DNA from: a virus
IMG/VR virus record: IMGVR_UViG_3300022187_000257
Span: 1-22,880 of that record
Strand: one strand, 5' to 3'
Length of the DNA stretch: 22,880 bases
Part shown: positions 3,215-19,421 of the stretch, piece by piece
Numbering within the stretch: position 1 is the first letter of the stretch
Layout: each line of letters begins with the position of its first letter
Notes under the pieces: model-generated
Database searches by the model: none
The model's input: only the letters and a program-made list of their open reading frames with translations
Told to the model about the DNA's origin: nothing
Position numbers and translations under genes: made by a program

Positions 3215-3252
3215 GAATCTCTTTTCTTCATAGTTGCTTTGTTTGTTTGGGG

Positions 3253-3283
3253 AGGGGTTGCAATCGCAGCCCTTCTTTTTTTT
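3253..3283 (+). terminator. Rho-independent terminator after late genes
   Basis: A 9-bp stem (3253-3261 with 3266-3274, core GGGTTGC / GCAGCCC, with G-T wobbles) closes a 4-base loop AATC and is followed by C and eight T at 3276-3283. It separates the tail/lysis genes from the promoter that follows. Confidence 0.85.
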
Positions 3284-3290
3284 GCAAAAT

Positions 3291-3321
3291 TTTGGTAGTT
3301 TAAAATATAGTTCTATATTTG
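3291..3321 (+). promoter_or_regulatory. Bacteroidetes-type promoter
   Basis: TTTG at 3291-3294, 19 bases, then TATATTTG at 3314-3321, matching the Bacteroidetes sigma-factor consensus (TTG near -33, TAnnTTTG near -7). It lies between a terminator and the first gene of the replication region, so it likely drives that region with a leader of about 30 bases. Confidence 0.75.
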
Positions 3322-3358: not shown

Positions 3359-3565
3359 ATGAAAACTTTAGAAAATATCGGAGACACATTTTTAAAACAA
3401 TCAATTATAACTACCATCATTAAGTTAGCTGAAAAAATAAGAGGGAGAGAATCTGTATCAAATCTAATCCAATACAGATACAAGGAGTTAATGAATCATA
3501 GCTATGAAGAATTAGAAGAAATTAGAGATAGTCATTTAAAAGTATATAACAATCAATCAATTTGA
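3359..3565 (+). CDS. Small hypothetical protein
   Basis: 68 residues, mostly predicted helix, with an acidic C-terminal part. First gene after the promoter at 3291-3321, the usual place for a small early host-takeover protein, but no motif supports a specific role. The start has an A-rich leader rather than a Shine-Dalgarno sequence. Confidence 0.55.
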   Translation: MKTLENIGDTFLKQSIITTIIKLAEKIRGRESVSNLIQYRYKELMNHSYEELEEIRDSHLKVYNNQSI

Positions 3566-12835: not shown

Positions 12836-13444
12836 ATGGCTAGTAAAATCAAAACAGAATGGATTAAAATAGGCAAAGTAAAAAACAACCCTAATAATCC
12901 GAGATTAATAAAAGATGACAAGTTTAAGAAGCTAGTCAATTCAATTAAAGAGTTTCCAAAAATGCTAGAGATACGTCCTATCGTAGTTAATGACGATATG
13001 ATAGTGCTAGGTGGCAACATGAGATTAAGAGCTTGCAAAGAAGCAGGATTAAAAGAAGTGCCTATAATTAAAGTAAGCGACCTTACTGAAGATGAGCAAA
13101 GGCAGTTTATAATCAAAGACAATGTAAGCGGTGGAGAATGGGATTGGGGAATGATTGCTAATGAATGGGATTCTGAACAATTGGAAGATTGGGGATTGGA
13201 TTTAATAGGATTTGATGATGTTGAAGATTTAGGGGAGGATTTTAGCCTTCCCGATGGGGACAAAGAACCTTTTCAGCAAATGACTTTTACTTTAGCAGAT
13301 GAACAAGCCGAAGTGATAAAAAACGCTTTGGATGAAATGAAAAAAACGGACGAATATAAGTATGCTGAAACGATGGGCAACATAAATAGCAACGGAAATG
13401 CACTTTATTTAATTGTAGCAGCATGGGCAGGGCAAAGGATATAA
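12836..13444 (+). CDS. ParB-like (ParB/Srx fold) protein
   Basis: 202 residues from the ATG at 12836; a TTG at 12827 adds three residues but is less likely. The N-terminal domain shows NPNNPRLIKDDKFKKLVNSI (18-37) and VLGGNMRLRACKEAG (57-71), the ParB N-domain boxes, followed by DEQRQFIIKDNVSGGEWDW, which is typical of the phage ParB-like domain often fused or adjacent to DNA methyltransferases. The C-terminal part is acidic and unassigned. The Mom-like gene begins inside its end (22-base overlap), so the pair is probably one functional unit in DNA modification, rather than in partitioning. Confidence 0.75.
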   Translation: MASKIKTEWIKIGKVKNNPNNPRLIKDDKFKKLVNSIKEFPKMLEIRPIVVNDDMIVLGGNMRLRACKEAGLKEVPIIKVSDLTEDEQRQFIIKDNVSGGEWDWGMIANEWDSEQLEDWGLDLIGFDDVEDLGEDFSLPDGDKEPFQQMTFTLADEQAEVIKNALDEMKKTDEYKYAETMGNINSNGNALYLIVAAWAGQRI

Positions 13445-14094
13445 TAATTAAGGTAATACCAGCAAAGATTGCTAATGAGTTTGTAAAGAAGCATCATTAT
13501 AGTGGTAAGGTTGTTCCAAATAGCACTTTACATTTTGGTTGTTTTTTAGATGGTAAATTGCACGGTGTTATGCAATATGGACCAAGTATAAATAAAAAAG
13601 GGACTATTAATTTAGTAGAGGGTACTAAATGGAATGAATTTATAGAACTTAACAGAATGGCATTTGATGACTATTTACCTAAATATTCAGAAAGTAGATG
13701 TATAGCAATTAGTATTAAACTAATAAAGAAAAATGCACCACAAATAAAATGGATAATATCATTTGCAGATGGCACGCAATGTGGAGATGGTACAATTTAT
13801 AGAGCGAGTGGTTTTAAACTAGTTGGCATTGTTGATAACACAGCATTAAGGATAAATCCTAAAACAGGAGATGCTATGCATGTTATACAAGCCCATCATT
13901 TAAAAATAAGTAGTGAGTTTAGAAAATGGAAACCATTTGAGGGTAAACAATTAAAATATATTTATTTAATAGATAAGAATTACAAGATAAACGCAAAAGT
14001 TTTACCATTTAGCAAAATAGATGAAATGGGAGCAGGGATGTATAAAGGAAAAAAGGTTACATTAGCAGAACGAAAAACCAAAAAAGATGTTTGA
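13423..14094 (+). CDS. Mom-like DNA adenine modification enzyme
   Basis: 223 residues. VKKHHYSGKV (21-30), LHFGCFLDGKLHGVMQYGPS (36-55), ELNRMAF (75-81) and the strongly marked ADGTQCGDGTIYRASGF (115-131) match the phage Mom-like group, which has a GNAT-related fold. Phage Mu Mom converts adenine in DNA to a carbamoylmethyl form that blocks many restriction enzymes. Here it would act before packaging, consistent with its place just upstream of the terminase genes. The substrate chemistry for this distant homologue is inferred, not shown. No Com-like zinc-finger activator is visible. Confidence 0.75.
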   Translation: MGRAKDIIIKVIPAKIANEFVKKHHYSGKVVPNSTLHFGCFLDGKLHGVMQYGPSINKKGTINLVEGTKWNEFIELNRMAFDDYLPKYSESRCIAISIKLIKKNAPQIKWIISFADGTQCGDGTIYRASGFKLVGIVDNTALRINPKTGDAMHVIQAHHLKISSEFRKWKPFEGKQLKYIYLIDKNYKINAKVLPFSKIDEMGAGMYKGKKVTLAERKTKKDV

Positions 14095-14314
14095 AAATAT
14101 AGGTTACGCAAAAGAATATTATTTAAAAGGTAAATACATAGCTTCTAAAAAAATATCAAAAAAAGACAGAAAAGAAACAGGATACTTTGGGAGAAAATTA
14201 GAAACCCCAAAAGAATCTTTTAAGATTGGTAAAAAGCAAATCAAGGAAGGTTTACAATATACAACAATATTAGTACCTTTATCAGGTAAAATAATACAAG
14301 CGGCAGAAGCATAA
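14087..14314 (+). CDS. Small basic hypothetical protein
   Basis: 75 residues, lysine-rich, overlapping the Mom-like gene by 8 bases. No fold recognised. Its last codons and stop double as the 5' strand and D-like arm of the tRNA-like element at 14300-14370, so translation to the stop codon would open that structure. Confidence 0.5.
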   Translation: MFENIGYAKEYYLKGKYIASKKISKKDRKETGYFGRKLETPKESFKIGKKQIKEGLQYTTILVPLSGKIIQAAEA

Positions 14315-14370
14315 AGAGTAATGCGCTTGGCATTCCAGCCAAGAGAAGGGGTGCAATTCCACCCTGCCGC
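14300..14370 (+). ncRNA. 71-nt tRNA-like cloverleaf before small terminase gene
   Basis: Seven-bp acceptor-like stem GCGGCAG (14300-14306) with CTGCCGC (14364-14370); two linker bases; 4-bp arm GCAT/ATGC (14309-14312, 14321-14324) with an 8-base loop; one base; 6-bp arm CTTGGC/GCCAAG (14326-14331, 14338-14343) with loop ATTCCA; four bases; arm GGGTG/CACCC (14349-14353, 14360-14364, the last base shared with the acceptor stem) with loop CAATTC. Order and linker lengths are those of a tRNA. It lacks the D-loop GG and a true TTC T-loop, and the middle loop has 6 (or 8) bases and not 7, so it is probably not a working tRNA. The small terminase ATG lies 15 bases after it. Confidence 0.65.
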
Positions 14371-14385
14371 TCAAAAGCTATTACA

Positions 14386-14751
14386 ATGGCATACGACAAA
14401 ACTAAAATATTTGAACAAGCTAAAGAAGCTATAAAGAAGAACAACCTTTTTTTTATTGAGGACATTGTAGCTTTCTTGCCATGCAGTAAGCCGACATTTT
14501 ATGAGTTCTTTCCACCTGAATCTAACAAACTTAACGCCCTTAAAGATTTGTTGGATGATAACAAGGTAAAGACAAAATCATCCATTAGAGCAAAGCTATG
14601 GAAGTCAGAAAAGGCAGCAGAGTTGCTAGCCCTTTACAGATTGATAGCAACACCTGAGGAACATAAGAAGTTAAATCAATCTTATATTGATCACACCTCA
14701 AAAGGGAAGGAGATTAACAGACCTGAATGGCTGACAACAAAGAAAGATTAA
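14386..14751 (+). CDS. terS: Terminase small subunit
   Basis: 121 residues. An N-terminal helical region with FIEDIVAFLPCSKPTFYEFF (an HTH-like segment) is followed by long helices (SSIRAKLWKSEKAAELLALYRLI) and a polar TPEEHKKLN tail, a pattern I recognise from small terminase proteins of Bacteroidetes phages. It recognises phage DNA and hands it to the large subunit. It overlaps the large subunit gene by 25 bases and is preceded by the tRNA-like element, which is in the right place for a packaging-related signal. Confidence 0.75.
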   Translation: MAYDKTKIFEQAKEAIKKNNLFFIEDIVAFLPCSKPTFYEFFPPESNKLNALKDLLDDNKVKTKSSIRAKLWKSEKAAELLALYRLIATPEEHKKLNQSYIDHTSKGKEINRPEWLTTKKD

Positions 14752-15935
14752 ACCCTAACTATTTATACTTACGAGATAAGCTACCTGAACAAAGATGGGT
14801 ATTCCTTCAAGGTGGCACTAGATCGGGTAAGACTTACTCTGTACTTCATTATCTTATAGCTTTGTGTTTAGACTATCCTAATGGCAAATTAGAGATAGAT
14901 ATAGTTCGTAATACCTTCAAGCTAGTTAAGTCAACTACATGGAAGGATATGCAGGACATATTAGAAGATATGAACCTCTATGATTTAAACCATCACAATA
15001 AGACAGACCATATCTATAACCTCAACGGTAATACGATTAACTATTACGGTGCAGATGATCCTGATAAAGCTCATGGACGCAAGAGAGATATTATCTTCTT
15101 GAATGAGTGCAATCAAATAGAAGAAGATACAATAGATCAAATAGAGCCAAGAACAACTTATCGTTTAATTGCCGACTATAACCCAGCTATTGGAGATGAT
15201 CATTGGCTAGATAGATTCTTAGAGACATATCCGCCACTTAAAACAACGTACAGAGATAACCCATACTTAACACCTGACCAAGTTGCTAGTATTGAGAGCA
15301 GAAAAGATAAGCCGTATTGGTGGACTGTTTACGGTACAGGAGAAAGAGCAAAGAGAGAAGGTGTTATCTTCCCTAATTGGGAGTATGGAGAATTTGACAC
15401 TTCATTGCCCTTTTACTATGGCTTAGACTTTGGATATAAGAATGACCCTGATGCTTGTGTTAAAGTAGCGATTGACGAAAAGCGAGAGATTATTTATGTA
15501 GATGAATTGTTCTATGATTACGGCAACACTATAAACGAGATAGCTAAAAGAGTAAAGGAATTACCCAAAGCTCCAATGGTAGCGGATTCGGCAGAGCAGA
15601 GATTGATTAATCATTTAGTAACCAAATCAGGGCAAGCGATAAGACCTGTTAAGAAGGGTCAAGGATCTGTCCTTCAAGGTATCAAGCTAATGGAGAACTA
15701 TAAGATCGTAATAACTAAGCGTAGCTCTAATTTAAAGGTTGAGATGAATAATTACAGCTGGTCAGATAAATCAGCTACAGCCCCTATTGACGATTATAAC
15801 CACGCTATTGATGCGATTAGATATGTAGTGTTCACGTATTGCAATAGAGCTTATCCAAAGCAAAATGTATCTAATACACTTAGTGCTAGAATTGCAAGAG
15901 GGGAGAGTTTAGGTAGTGAAGGAATTGAATGGTAG
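14727..15935 (+). CDS. terL: Terminase large subunit
   Basis: 402 residues. The ATPase domain has Walker A GGTRSGKT (29-36), Walker B DIIFLNE (121-127) and a following coupling motif near YRLIADYNP (145-153). The nuclease domain has D234 in YGLDFGYKNDP, D287 in VADSAE and D362 in DDYNHAIDAIRY, the acidic triad of the RNase H-like headful/cos nuclease. It packages DNA through the portal and cuts concatemers. A portal gene would be expected next but is not seen. Confidence 0.92.
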   Translation: MADNKERLNPNYLYLRDKLPEQRWVFLQGGTRSGKTYSVLHYLIALCLDYPNGKLEIDIVRNTFKLVKSTTWKDMQDILEDMNLYDLNHHNKTDHIYNLNGNTINYYGADDPDKAHGRKRDIIFLNECNQIEEDTIDQIEPRTTYRLIADYNPAIGDDHWLDRFLETYPPLKTTYRDNPYLTPDQVASIESRKDKPYWWTVYGTGERAKREGVIFPNWEYGEFDTSLPFYYGLDFGYKNDPDACVKVAIDEKREIIYVDELFYDYGNTINEIAKRVKELPKAPMVADSAEQRLINHLVTKSGQAIRPVKKGQGSVLQGIKLMENYKIVITKRSSNLKVEMNNYSWSDKSATAPIDDYNHAIDAIRYVVFTYCNRAYPKQNVSNTLSARIARGESLGSEGIEW

Positions 15936-15959
15936 GTTAAAATAAATGTATTACCTTAG
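15925..15959 (+). promoter_or_regulatory. Promoter-like site, TAnCTTAG variant
   Basis: TTG at 15925-15927 (24 bases upstream, long) and TACCTTAG at 15952-15959. From the box to the ATG, the leader ACCTTAG..GAATTAAAACCAAAGACAATG resembles that at 4585-4617. Placed in the gap between the large terminase gene and the next gene. Confidence 0.4.
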
Positions 15960-15979
15960 CCGAATTAAAACCAAAGACA

Positions 15980-16291
15980 ATGAGCGAATACAAGAAAATA
16001 CTTTCACATAAGGTTACATTAACTAAAGATGGAAGACAAAACATTGAATTTGAGATAGAGGGAGACAGTGAAAAAATACCTTCATACTTCATATATCCTG
16101 AAGAAATAACCCACGAGAGAACCTTTCTAACTCAGGCAAACATTTACAGGAACTTATTGACCGTTGTTCGTCTCAATGGAAAGTTGATTAATCTATACTA
16201 TACTGACGAAAAATGGGACTGGTCAAAGGATTGCGTTGCAGCCCCACTTCCATACGATTACTTTAACCAAAAAAGAGTAGACATTGAGTGA
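15980..16291 (+). CDS. Hypothetical protein
   Basis: 103 residues, polar and aromatic, likely alpha/beta, ends with LPYDYFNQKRVDIE. No family recognised and no feature of a portal or capsid protein (much too short). A-rich leader before the ATG. Confidence 0.55.
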   Translation: MSEYKKILSHKVTLTKDGRQNIEFEIEGDSEKIPSYFIYPEEITHERTFLTQANIYRNLLTVVRLNGKLINLYYTDEKWDWSKDCVAAPLPYDYFNQKRVDIE

Positions 16292-16508
16292 TTGCAAAAG
16301 CATTAAAGGGAATATAAAGAGCATAGAGCAAAAGATTAGGATATCCACAGAATTTGCGTTTATAGATCTAATCAACGAACTAGGGTATCGAGACAAAAAG
16401 CCTTGGGATGACTCTGAATCAGGAGGGTTGACTAATCTAATGAAGTTGGCTGAAAAACATACAGAAAGGATTATTGAAATAATTGAAAATTATCCAAGTA
16501 AAATATAG
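16284..16508 (+). CDS. Small hypothetical helical protein
   Basis: 74 residues using a TTG start at 16284 that overlaps the previous stop; no ATG alternative gives this frame its full length. Mostly helical (IKSIEQKIRIS, NLMKLAEKHTERIIEIIENY). Not recognised. Confidence 0.45.
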   Translation: MSDCKSIKGNIKSIEQKIRISTEFAFIDLINELGYRDKKPWDDSESGGLTNLMKLAEKHTERIIEIIENYPSKI

Positions 16509-16539
16509 TACACAAATACTTACATATAAATAATTTGTG

Positions 16540-16547
16540 TATATTTG
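16540..16547 (+). promoter_or_regulatory. -7 box TATATTTG before leader ORF
   Basis: Exact TAnnTTTG match, in the gap after the gene ending at 16508. The -33 position (about 16518-16520) reads ACT, not TTG, so the promoter is incomplete by consensus. If used, transcription would start near 16554, about 17 bases before the 25-codon ORF. Confidence 0.5.
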
Positions 16548-16570
16548 CGACTTAACGATTTAGAATTTCA

Positions 16571-16648
16571 ATGCAATTAGTAAGAAATATAGGCTTTACC
16601 GCGATTACGGATAAAAACGTGATCAGGGGGTCTATTGACGATATGTAA
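16571..16648 (+). CDS. 25-codon leader ORF
   Basis: ATG at 16571 to TAA at 16646-16648 encodes MQLVRNIGFTAITDKNVIRG and five more residues. It sits behind a TATATTTG box, and its last codons (16626-16634) form one arm of the antiterminator-like pairing. No run of one amino acid is present, so if it acts in attenuation it is not a simple amino-acid sensor. It may also be just a small protein or chance. Confidence 0.4.
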   Translation: MQLVRNIGFTAITDKNVIRGSIDDM

Positions 16649-16699
16649 GTAATTGCAATTAAGATAAAGTAGACCCTCAGAGAAATCTGGGGGTTTTTT
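16626..16699 (+). promoter_or_regulatory. Attenuator-like alternative hairpins
   Basis: GGGGGTCTA (16626-16634) pairs with TAGACCCTC (16670-16678), 9 bp with one G-T. CCCTCAGA (16674-16681) instead pairs with TCTGGGGG (16686-16693) to form the terminator. The shared CCCTC (16674-16678) makes the two pairings exclusive. The first arm lies in the leader ORF, so a ribosome there would block the antiterminator and favour the terminator. Confidence 0.5.
16674..16699 (+). terminator. Rho-independent terminator with GAAA loop
   Basis: Eight-bp stem CCCTCAGA / TCTGGGGG (one T-G wobble) closing a GAAA tetraloop, followed by six T at 16694-16699. It lies 42 bases before the next gene start. Confidence 0.8.
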
Positions 16700-16740
16700 G
16701 ATTTTGGGATAGAGATATAAGTACCGACCATTACGATGCA

Positions 16741-16869
16741 ATGCTAAGGCACTTGATGGACCACGAAGAAAACCCTATTGATGATGACCAGCAACTTCAT
16801 TTAGCTAAGGTGGCTTGGAGAGCATTGGCAGGTTTGCAAGTTTATTTAGAATCAATTAAACGATCATGA
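16741..16869 (+). CDS. 42-residue hypothetical protein
   Basis: ATG at 16741 to TGA at 16867-16869, sharing ATGA with the next gene. The protein (HLMDHEENPIDDDQQLHLAK, then a VAWRALAGLQVYLESIK helix) has good coding character. The frame stays open and protein-like upstream to 16702 (FWDRDISTDHYDA) but has no start codon there, directly after the terminator T run. Position suggests a small tail-assembly partner of the next gene. Confidence 0.55.
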   Translation: MLRHLMDHEENPIDDDQQLHLAKVAWRALAGLQVYLESIKRS

Positions 16870-17690
16870 GAGTAAGAATACCTGATAACACAACTGAATT
16901 AACATTAGAGCAATATCAGTTCTTAATGGGAAACTTAAACACTAATGTAGAGCGAGGCGAGTATATCATTAAGCACTTCTCTCAAGATAATGGCTTTTGT
17001 ACTTATCTGATTCGGAATAGATATAATCGTAGAATTTTGAATTTTGCTCCGATCCCATTATTTATACGCTATTTTTTTAACATAATTCTTAAGCCATTCA
17101 CAAAACGAGATCCCGATAAGTTTGATGATGACACTAAGTCGGCTGTGTTCTTAACTATGATGAAGTTGTTTGAGAATGAAGAAAGCTTTGAGCCTGAAAA
17201 GGAAATAGAAGGCTATCGCATACCAAGCGAATTACTTAAAATAAGAGTAGGGCATTTCATCGAGATAGTAAACGCTGAAATAGATCAAGTATCAATGGTC
17301 AACGCTGAGATACTAATGGGTTGTTTCTATCGAAAGGATTGGGATAAAGATTTTAGTGAAGAAGAGATACTAAGCACAGCAGAGTTCTTTCAAACAAGGC
17401 CATTAAGAGAAACAATAGGAGGTGTAATATTGATGGGTAGATTAATTCAGCGTTTAAGAGACACTTACCCTTTATTGTATGATGACAAAGTAAACGAAGA
17501 AGCAGAAATAGAAAAGACGGAGGATGAAGGTAGAAGGTTGTATGATATGCTTATGGGATTAGCAAATGGAGAAGCAACAAAAATGTTTAAGGCAAAATGT
17601 ATGAGATTAGGAGATGCTTTTGTATATTTGGAGGAATTAAAGAAAGAAAAGATTAAAGAACGATTAAACGCTAAAAACAAAAACGGATGA
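16866..17690 (+). CDS. Possible tail assembly chaperone-like protein
   Basis: 274 residues. The beginning VRIPDNTTELTLEQYQFLMG resembles Bacteroidetes phage proteins encoded just ahead of tail genes (I know them as tail-chaperone-like, 'IPDS..ITLGQYQ'). Two conspicuous regions follow: IPLFIRYFFNIILKPF (63-78) is hydrophobic but charged at the ends; the last 60 residues are charged helix. No slippery site or fused second frame was noticed. The assignment rests on N-terminal resemblance and position and remains tentative. Confidence 0.4.
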   Translation: MRVRIPDNTTELTLEQYQFLMGNLNTNVERGEYIIKHFSQDNGFCTYLIRNRYNRRILNFAPIPLFIRYFFNIILKPFTKRDPDKFDDDTKSAVFLTMMKLFENEESFEPEKEIEGYRIPSELLKIRVGHFIEIVNAEIDQVSMVNAEILMGCFYRKDWDKDFSEEEILSTAEFFQTRPLRETIGGVILMGRLIQRLRDTYPLLYDDKVNEEAEIEKTEDEGRRLYDMLMGLANGEATKMFKAKCMRLGDAFVYLEELKKEKIKERLNAKNKNG

Positions 17691-17737
17691 AACTAACATT
17701 AACATATACAGATAATTTGAGACAGATAGGCAGTTAG
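17687..17737 (+). pseudogene. Short ORF, possible truncated gene start
   Basis: ATG at 17687 (ATGA with the previous stop) encodes 16 residues (MKLTLTYTDNLRQIGS) before TAG. Shifting frame by one base near 17733 continues as LDKYLMN and stops at 17755-17757. The start looks like that of a normal coupled phage gene, so this may be the scar of a deleted or frameshifted gene just before the promoter at 17746. Could be chance. Confidence 0.25.
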
Positions 17738-17745
17738 ATAAATAC

Positions 17746-17775
17746 TTGATGAATTAAAATATAATTCGATATTTG
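17746..17775 (+). promoter_or_regulatory. Bacteroidetes-type promoter (one mismatch)
   Basis: TTG at 17746-17748, 19 bases, GATATTTG at 17768-17775; the spacing equals that of the promoter at 3291. The next ATG is 38 bases downstream after an A-rich leader. Confidence 0.6.
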
Positions 17776-17813
17776 CAAACAATTAATAAACATTAAACTA
17801 AAATTAAACAACA

Positions 17814-18140
17814 ATGAAGAAATTAATGAAACACGAAGTTGGTGATTCAATCAACGGAACTTACAAGACTAATACACTAAGAGGTGTTACATACTACGAA
17901 CTATTTAATGCACTTGGTCAACCAACATACGAGCATCCATCAGAAGATAATAAAACGCAGGTTGAGTGGGTTATTGAATGGAAGGATGAGGTATATACTA
18001 TCTACGATTGGAAAACCTACGATAGAGAATACACTATCAACGAACTTAATACTTGGAGTATCGGCAGTAAAGTGCCATCATATGCATTTGAAGATGTTCT
18101 AATTAACTTAATCGACAAGGATGTAGTAGATAGAAAATAA
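17814..18140 (+). CDS. Hypothetical phage protein, monocistronic
   Basis: 108 residues with repeated W/Y residues (TQVEWVIEWKDEVYTIYDWK, then ELNTWSIGSK). I recall similar 'YDWKxYD..IGSK' proteins in phages but no function. It has its own promoter (17746-17775) and terminator (18165-18196), so it is transcribed as an independent unit within the tail region, as in early or moron genes. Confidence 0.6.
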   Translation: MKKLMKHEVGDSINGTYKTNTLRGVTYYELFNALGQPTYEHPSEDNKTQVEWVIEWKDEVYTIYDWKTYDREYTINELNTWSIGSKVPSYAFEDVLINLIDKDVVDRK

Positions 18141-18164
18141 GATTTTATTTTTTTGGTTAATTAC

Positions 18165-18196
18165 AAAGGGCTATATTGATTTATAGCTCTTTTTTT
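18165..18196 (+). terminator. Rho-independent terminator
   Basis: Eleven-bp stem AAAGGGCTATA (18165-18175) with TATAGCTCTTT (18182-18192), one G-T wobble, 6-base loop, then T run to 18196. Ends the single-gene unit 17814-18140. Confidence 0.85.
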
Positions 18197-18209
18197 ATTC
18201 TTAACTTTG
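18176..18209 (+). promoter_or_regulatory. Promoter for the tail gene block
   Basis: TTG at 18176-18178 (in the terminator loop), 23 bases, TAACTTTG at 18202-18209. The -7 box is an exact TAnnTTTG match. Transcription from about 18216 fixes the next start at ATG 18231 and not the upstream TTG at 18207. Confidence 0.55.
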
Positions 18210-18230
18210 TATAAGTTAAATATTTTTCGT

Positions 18231-18455
18231 ATGAAGTACCCTACTCATATAAATATGCAAAATCTTGGAGACGGCAACTATAAAGTAACCGACGATAAAG
18301 AGAATAGATATTTTATAGGAGAACTTGATGAGGCATTAGATTTTTACTCTGCTTGGAGTTTAGGGAAAGAGCCTTATGATGATATTGAGTACATTGTAGA
18401 TATAGAAGGATTAGAGTTTGAATGTGATTTTGATATAGAAGAGGATGAAGATTAG
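18231..18455 (+). CDS. Small acidic hypothetical protein
   Basis: 74 residues from ATG 18231, chosen because the TTG at 18207 falls inside the promoter box. Very acidic C-terminus (FECDFDIEEDED). No family recognised; resembles small DNA-mimic-like or head-tail accessory proteins only in charge. Overlaps the next gene by 11 bases. Confidence 0.55.
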   Translation: MKYPTHINMQNLGDGNYKVTDDKENRYFIGELDEALDFYSAWSLGKEPYDDIEYIVDIEGLEFECDFDIEEDED

Positions 18456-18885
18456 CCCAAAGGAAATAATAGAAACAATAGAGAGTAAGATTACAACGGT
18501 TCTCTCGAATGAAATAGTTACCTACAATTACGTCTCTACTTTAGATCAAGTTGATATAGACGCTAAAAAGAACTTCCCTAGAGTTTACTTTAATTGGAGT
18601 TCTTCAGGAAGTTTAAACGAGAATAACAACACCGTAGTAATTACATTTATGTTCGTAGATGTAGCAGAGGGTAAAAGTGATAGTGTCAAAAGAGACTATG
18701 AGATCAAGTCGGATATGCTACAAGCTGCGAGTAAGTTTGTAGATAATTTGTCAAGAGAAGAACTATTGCCAGACTTTGAATATGCGGTTAGTTATGATCC
18801 ATTAAGCGGTCGATACAACAATGGTCTATCTGGTATTCAATTCAGTTTAACATTTGCGATAAATCAACCTTGCTATAATATTTAG
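18445..18885 (+). CDS. Possible tail terminator/completion protein
   Basis: 146 residues. An N-terminal helix (SPKEIIETIESKITTVL) is followed by strands and the segment VVITFMFVDVAEGKSDSVKR, then EIKSDMLQAASKFVDNL helix and a final strand region ending in AINQPCYNI. This order (helix, beta, 'VQSDxLQ' helix, beta) resembles the tail-completion proteins found beside HK97-gp10-like genes in Bacteroidetes phages. The next gene is such a gp10-like protein, which supports the call. Confidence 0.5.
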   Translation: MKISPKEIIETIESKITTVLSNEIVTYNYVSTLDQVDIDAKKNFPRVYFNWSSSGSLNENNNTVVITFMFVDVAEGKSDSVKRDYEIKSDMLQAASKFVDNLSREELLPDFEYAVSYDPLSGRYNNGLSGIQFSLTFAINQPCYNI

Positions 18886-19421
18886 TGGAATTAGATAACA
18901 CATATAAGGCATTAGAAGAATACTCAGATAGAGTAGTTGCGAGAGCAAGAAAGAATCTAAACACTACTGGCTTTGCTCATAGAGGACGCAAAATAAACGC
19001 TTCTAAGGAACTATCTAAAGGGCTAGGGTATAAGATATCAAAGAACAACAATGGATTAATAGCAGAGTACACAAGCAAGAAAGACTATGCACCATTTGTA
19101 GAAGAAGGTAGAAAGAAAGGTAAACGTCCTCCATTAGCACCAATTATCAAATGGATTAAGCAGAAAAAGATAAGGCTACAAAATAAGAAAAGCGGAGGCT
19201 TTATTAAGATGAGTGATACAAACATCAAAGGAGCTGCTTATACTATTGCGAGAAAGATAGGAAGAAAAGGAACAAAGGCTACTCACTTCTATGGCGATGC
19301 TATGGAGTATGAGTTCAAACAATTACCTCAGCCACTCGGAGAAGCATTAGTAAAAGATATGGAGAAAGTAATAGTAGATGCTTTCCAAAAGAATGATAAT
19401 ATTAAAGCAATGATTAAATAA
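18885..19421 (+). CDS. HK97 gp10-like tail/neck protein
   Basis: 178 residues with a GTG start at 18885 overlapping the previous TAG. The DYAPFVEEGRKKGKRPPLAP (86-105) and following IIKWIKQK are the signature of HK97 gp10-like (minor tail/head-tail joining) proteins, which have YAxFVExGt and a PPxxxIxxWI segment. Strongly basic overall. It likely joins head and tail or completes the tail tube. Confidence 0.65.
   Translation: MELDNTYKALEEYSDRVVARARKNLNTTGFAHRGRKINASKELSKGLGYKISKNNNGLIAEYTSKKDYAPFVEEGRKKGKRPPLAPIIKWIKQKKIRLQNKKSGGFIKMSDTNIKGAAYTIARKIGRKGTKATHFYGDAMEYEFKQLPQPLGEALVKDMEKVIVDAFQKNDNIKAMIK

Follow-up and report, generated by a model that had tools for sequence, protein, structure and literature searches.

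The window analysed here is the whole of IMG/VR virus record IMGVR_UViG_3300022187_000257, positions 1 to 22,880 (22,880 bases). The best-scoring matches of its terminase (14727-15935) were phages of Parabacteroides and Bacteroides, and those of its neck-type protein (18885-19421) were phages of Nonlabens and Parabacteroides, so that the host, judged from these matches, is likely a member of the Bacteroidota. Genes in the window start in A-rich contexts, with A at position -11 in 23 of 29 and at -3 in 19 of 29; in Flavobacterium johnsoniae an A at -3 was reported as a positive determinant (PMC6847099).

Two related contigs, L033 and L037, were retrieved by a profile search with a terminase alignment. 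In both, the terminase ORF overlaps at its end with the start of the homologue of the gene at 16866-17690 (plus strand; 43% over 162 aa in L033), and the genes that come next adjoin without a gap. Compared with these contigs, which run without a gap at both points, the stretches 15936-16865 (plus strand, from the terminase to the 16866 gene) and 17691-18444 are therefore insertions, a word that here denotes a comparison with two contigs only and covers gain in this phage as well as loss in the others. The 16866 gene, the first conserved one past the terminator described below, had no Pfam or PHROG match; from its position, its product is perhaps a tail-assembly protein. The initial annotation placed an RNA element upstream of tail genes, which is fair by position, but the region is wholly missing in L033 and L037, and the element is therefore not a regulatory feature common to such late operons.

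The first insertion carries two small ORFs, starting at 15980 and 16284, besides a gene remnant. The latter is a 42-codon ORF (16741-16869, plus strand) that resembles the C-terminal part of a dATP/dGTP diphosphohydrolase (PF18909, E 5e-4, below the curated cut-off) and joins the next gene through an ATGA overlap. Homology to the diphosphohydrolase-like protein starts at 16705, directly past the terminator; the homologues are longer, and their N-terminal part was not found upstream, so by its sequence the ORF is left over from a longer gene that was truncated. An in-frame TGA follows immediately after the terminator and precedes this ORF. We also weighed a type III toxin-antitoxin arrangement but gave it up, since the gene downstream is a conserved phage gene and not a toxin. 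The second insertion contains an ORF (17814-18140), a terminator (18165-18192) and a promoter-like GATATTTG with a TTG 19 nt upstream (17768).

An intrinsic terminator lies at 16671-16699 on the plus strand, with an 11-bp stem (16671-16696), a GAAA loop and a U tract; its hairpin was calculated at -16.5 kcal/mol, with a z of -3.7 against shuffles. Upstream, GGGGGUCUA (16626-16634) is complementary to UAGACCCUC (16670-16678), as the initial annotation had noted under the name of an antiterminator-like pairing. The complementarity was found to reach further than described, to 11 bp between segment 2 (16626-16636, plus strand) and segment 3 (16668-16678, plus strand), the latter overlapping the 5' arm of the terminator, and the hairpin closed by this 2:3 pairing reaches -17.0 kcal/mol (z -4.4). 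The duplex between the upstream region and the terminator 5' arm was calculated at -18.1 kcal/mol, a value matched in 1 of 3000 shuffles and in none of 976 other windows along this phage; such a pairing is unlikely to arise by chance. The 2:3 and terminator pairings are mutually exclusive because both use the CCCTC at 16674-16678, a shared segment that had also been pointed out and is present, with the terminator stem now placed at 16671-16696 and followed by Ts. The proposal of mutually exclusive hairpins is supported by fold z-scores, duplex statistics and predicted folds. Among 49 strong terminators in the compared sequences, a z of -2 or lower was reached only by the two copies of the element and by loci fetched with a 2:3-type pattern, which itself requires a 2:3-like pairing.

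The larger RNA is also structured. With a 5' end assumed from the promoter-like box discussed below, the stretch 16554-16699 (plus strand, about 146 nt) has a minimum free energy of -40.3 kcal/mol and a z of -5.12, and none of 200 shuffles folded as well; the minus strand over nearly the same stretch folded at chance (z +0.48). Both the minimum-energy and the centroid fold contain an upstream hairpin at 16572-16657 on the plus strand, built of P1 (16572-16579/16650-16657), P2 (16589-16595/16629-16635) and P3 (16603-16609/16618-16624). P2 is the pairing of segment 1 with segment 2, and as a duplex alone it is not significant, being equalled in 409 of 2000 shuffles. When the growing transcript was folded at equilibrium, the 1:2 pairing prevailed up to 16670, the 2:3 pairing at 16678-16690 and the 3:4 pairing of the terminator from 16692 on, an order of folds along the transcript that is switch-like in the model. 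At full length the terminator fold has a probability of about 1.0; a 2:3 state could thus arise only kinetically.

A 25-codon ORF, from ATG to TAA with the translation MQLVRNIGFTAITDKNVIRGSIDDM, occupies 16571-16648 on the plus strand. The initial annotation saw in the whole a translation-coupled attenuator, in which a ribosome stalled in this ORF would free segment 2 for segment 3 and let the polymerase pass. The layout is indeed the classical one of the trp, his and phe attenuators (RF01859 Phe_leader, RF00514 His_leader): 1:2, 2:3 and 3:4 pairings follow each other and exclude each other, a terminator closes the series, and a short ORF spans segments 1 and 2. An exclusive antiterminator and terminator, a mark of ribosome-mediated attenuators, are found here among predicted folds, and by E-value the best Rfam match was Phe_leader, with a score of only 18.7 bits where the threshold is 55. 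The ORF itself exists as annotated, but looks non-coding. Its codon score of -0.127 is equalled or exceeded by 40% of non-coding open windows, and only 1.4% of coding windows score so low; its start context is equalled or exceeded by 53% of other ATGs. For an ORF this short, codon usage and start context are indirect guides, and they suggest that it is probably untranslated. As had been said of it, MQLVRNIGFTAITDKNVIRGSIDDM holds no run of codons for a regulated amino acid, in which it differs from the known attenuators, as it does in showing no sign of translation, in having phage structural genes rather than biosynthetic ones downstream and in Rfam scores far below threshold. With a stalled ribosome represented by 30 masked nucleotides, the 2:3 pairing gained a majority in the full transcript only at codons 6-7 (0.85-0.86), whereas every other single-ribosome stall position in this simple model left the terminator favoured. 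Coupling to translation is accordingly left unsupported, and a ribosome-driven attenuator is quite improbable.

Whether the RNA has its own promoter bears on two further explanations. The box TATATTTG that the initial annotation had listed stands at 16540-16547 on the plus strand and fits the Bacteroidota -7 consensus TANNTTTG quoted in PMC6847099, but it occurs in the window at chance frequency (3 times against 3.25 expected; for TANNTTTG, 24 against 28.6, likewise not beyond chance), and the -33 element is absent, no TTG being found 18-21 nt upstream of it. It is a weak promoter candidate. A perfect 9-bp inverted repeat, TACACAAAT-N15-ATTTGTGTA (16509-16541), overlaps its first two bases; this is one of only two perfect dyads with 9-bp arms and a spacing of 3-20 in the window, folds as RNA with only -5.9 kcal/mol and is a possible operator. 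The window's best promoter match lies elsewhere, at 3249-3321, where a full TTTG-N19-TATATTTG promoter comes between a terminator and an ORF at 3359.

The box, dyad, structured body and terminator, which share a gap some 230 nt long within an insertion, could be read as an independent small RNA about 145 nt long, the alternative already named in the initial annotation; it would be a moron-like unit acting in trans or as a decoy, with the 2:3 pairing incidental. The nearby second insertion, whose ORF likewise has promoter-like and terminator-like signals, agrees with such a reading. The weakness of the box speaks against it, and in a simple small RNA a stable competitor of the terminator would be a disadvantage. 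In addition, no Rfam leader or riboswitch family matched at its gathering threshold, and a relaxed threshold gave nothing convincing. A free small RNA is doubtful, though of real weight as a reading. Morons were originally described as complete transcription units, and the term now also covers insertions unique or limited to few genomes (PMC6316719). The unit here is moron-like as extra DNA between conserved late genes that is absent from the relatives L033 and L037, and may be so in having a promoter and terminator of its own, of which the terminator is strong and the promoter a weak candidate; unlike morons, it seemingly has no protein gene, and the insertion also holds the two small ORFs and the remnant.

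A late leader of the lambda type would combine such a promoter with an early terminator, overridden by a phage antitermination protein so that the late genes are expressed. In lambda, the pR'-tR' late leader with its 6S RNA is short, ends at a terminator and precedes the late genes. The present element recalls it, since here too a promoter-like box, a short leader and a strong terminator stand before late genes. Unlike pR'-tR', the element sits inside the late cluster and not at its head; L033 and L037 are without it, and its promoter is only a candidate. Among the features identified, with profile scans of some of the window's genes, there is neither an antitermination protein nor a site for one. 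This reading of the element is highly improbable.

The only other copy found was in contig IMGVR_UViG_3300025853_008468, which is identical over 16400-16900 and has 15 differences in 8.5 kb, all within 14397-14617. Since there are only two copies, identical there, the pairings offer no covariation signal to compare. Scanning the collection for the 2:3 pairing plus terminator gave 8 loci, namely the identical contig and seven that are unrelated in surrounding sequence, while a scan for P3 plus segment 2 returned, besides the identical contig, one match, which falls within a coding ORF on an unrelated contig. The two rows from which covariance model R1 was built are identical, so that it comes close to a single-sequence model; run over 11 records and 100 sources (99 loci besides the window), it recovered only the window itself. 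A match in L045 (E 0.43) was rejected as lying inside a coding ORF, and a further match, in L085, has an E of 4. Distant blastn found nothing in plasmids, and in phages its sole hit was a stretch of 32 nt shared with four Agrobacterium phage records. As single queries, the proteins starting at 16866, 15980, 19423 and 16284 recovered the identical contig only, and scans of genome contigs with the 16866 protein and the terminase gave nothing. The searches for diverged copies comprised exact-pattern scans and an effectively one-sequence model. The RNA element is an orphan: a single, unreplicated sequence whose folding statistics are good but which has no support from comparison. Positions 1-962 of L015, an otherwise near-identical contig, differ from 13090-14384 of the window, which includes a Mom-like gene (13423-14094); the difference suggests a local replacement.

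That pattern, covariance-model and protein searches found no diverged copy agrees with a passive terminator that merely closes the insertion genes at 15980 and 16284 in decaying accessory DNA, its rival pairing being a functionless local duplication. Segment 2 falls in a stretch that directly repeats the 3' arm of the terminator (16622-16638 against 16685-16701, 82%). The 2:3 pairing follows from this repeat, which may be an accident of duplication; the neighbouring 16741 ORF, which is truncated, is also in keeping with decay. On the other side, the portion without the terminator still folds better than chance (z -3.15), and the stem starts about 160 nt past the upstream stop codon, which is far for an end-of-operon terminator. 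A purely passive terminator is on balance unlikely.

We favour the reading that 16509-16700 is an accessory RNA unit within the insertion whose intrinsic terminator is conditional and gates readthrough into the tail genes without translation, and give it a probability of roughly 40%. Its predicted fold is beyond chance, its pairings are exclusive, and two relatives lack the region, which is an insertion by comparison with them; that the unit is transcribed, that it switches and that some trigger sets the switch, we infer. RNA from the unit would end in the strong terminator. The 2:3 pairing (16626-16636/16668-16678) would occupy the terminator 5' arm and produce a readthrough state, while the hairpin at 16572-16657 would occupy the upstream partner of that pairing and favour termination. 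Such a terminator would limit how much transcription, arriving from upstream or from the unit's own weak promoter, reaches the 16741 ORF and the 16866 gene. Independence from translation is preferred because the 25-codon ORF looks untranslated; its translation would not be needed, and the level of readthrough would depend on folding kinetics or on a factor binding the hairpin. The 16866 gene may need this readthrough, because no Bacteroidota-type promoter box was found between the terminator and the gene, which is kept in L033 and L037; phage late promoters may differ from the host consensus. The broader proposition, that a Bacteroidota phage acquired by insertion an RNA switch which controls transcription of its tail genes as a translation-independent, signal-sensing conditional terminator, is distinctly unlikely. 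If true, it would mean that a late operon gained a conditional terminator through insertion, and that a conserved gene of the structural cluster was made dependent on a newly acquired RNA element.

A similar competing-hairpin logic was seen in unrelated surroundings, in recurrent GGGTCTA...TAGACCC...GGGTTTTT elements of L017, L018, L019 and L023, on contigs of 58-266 kb; all four loci contain tRNA genes.
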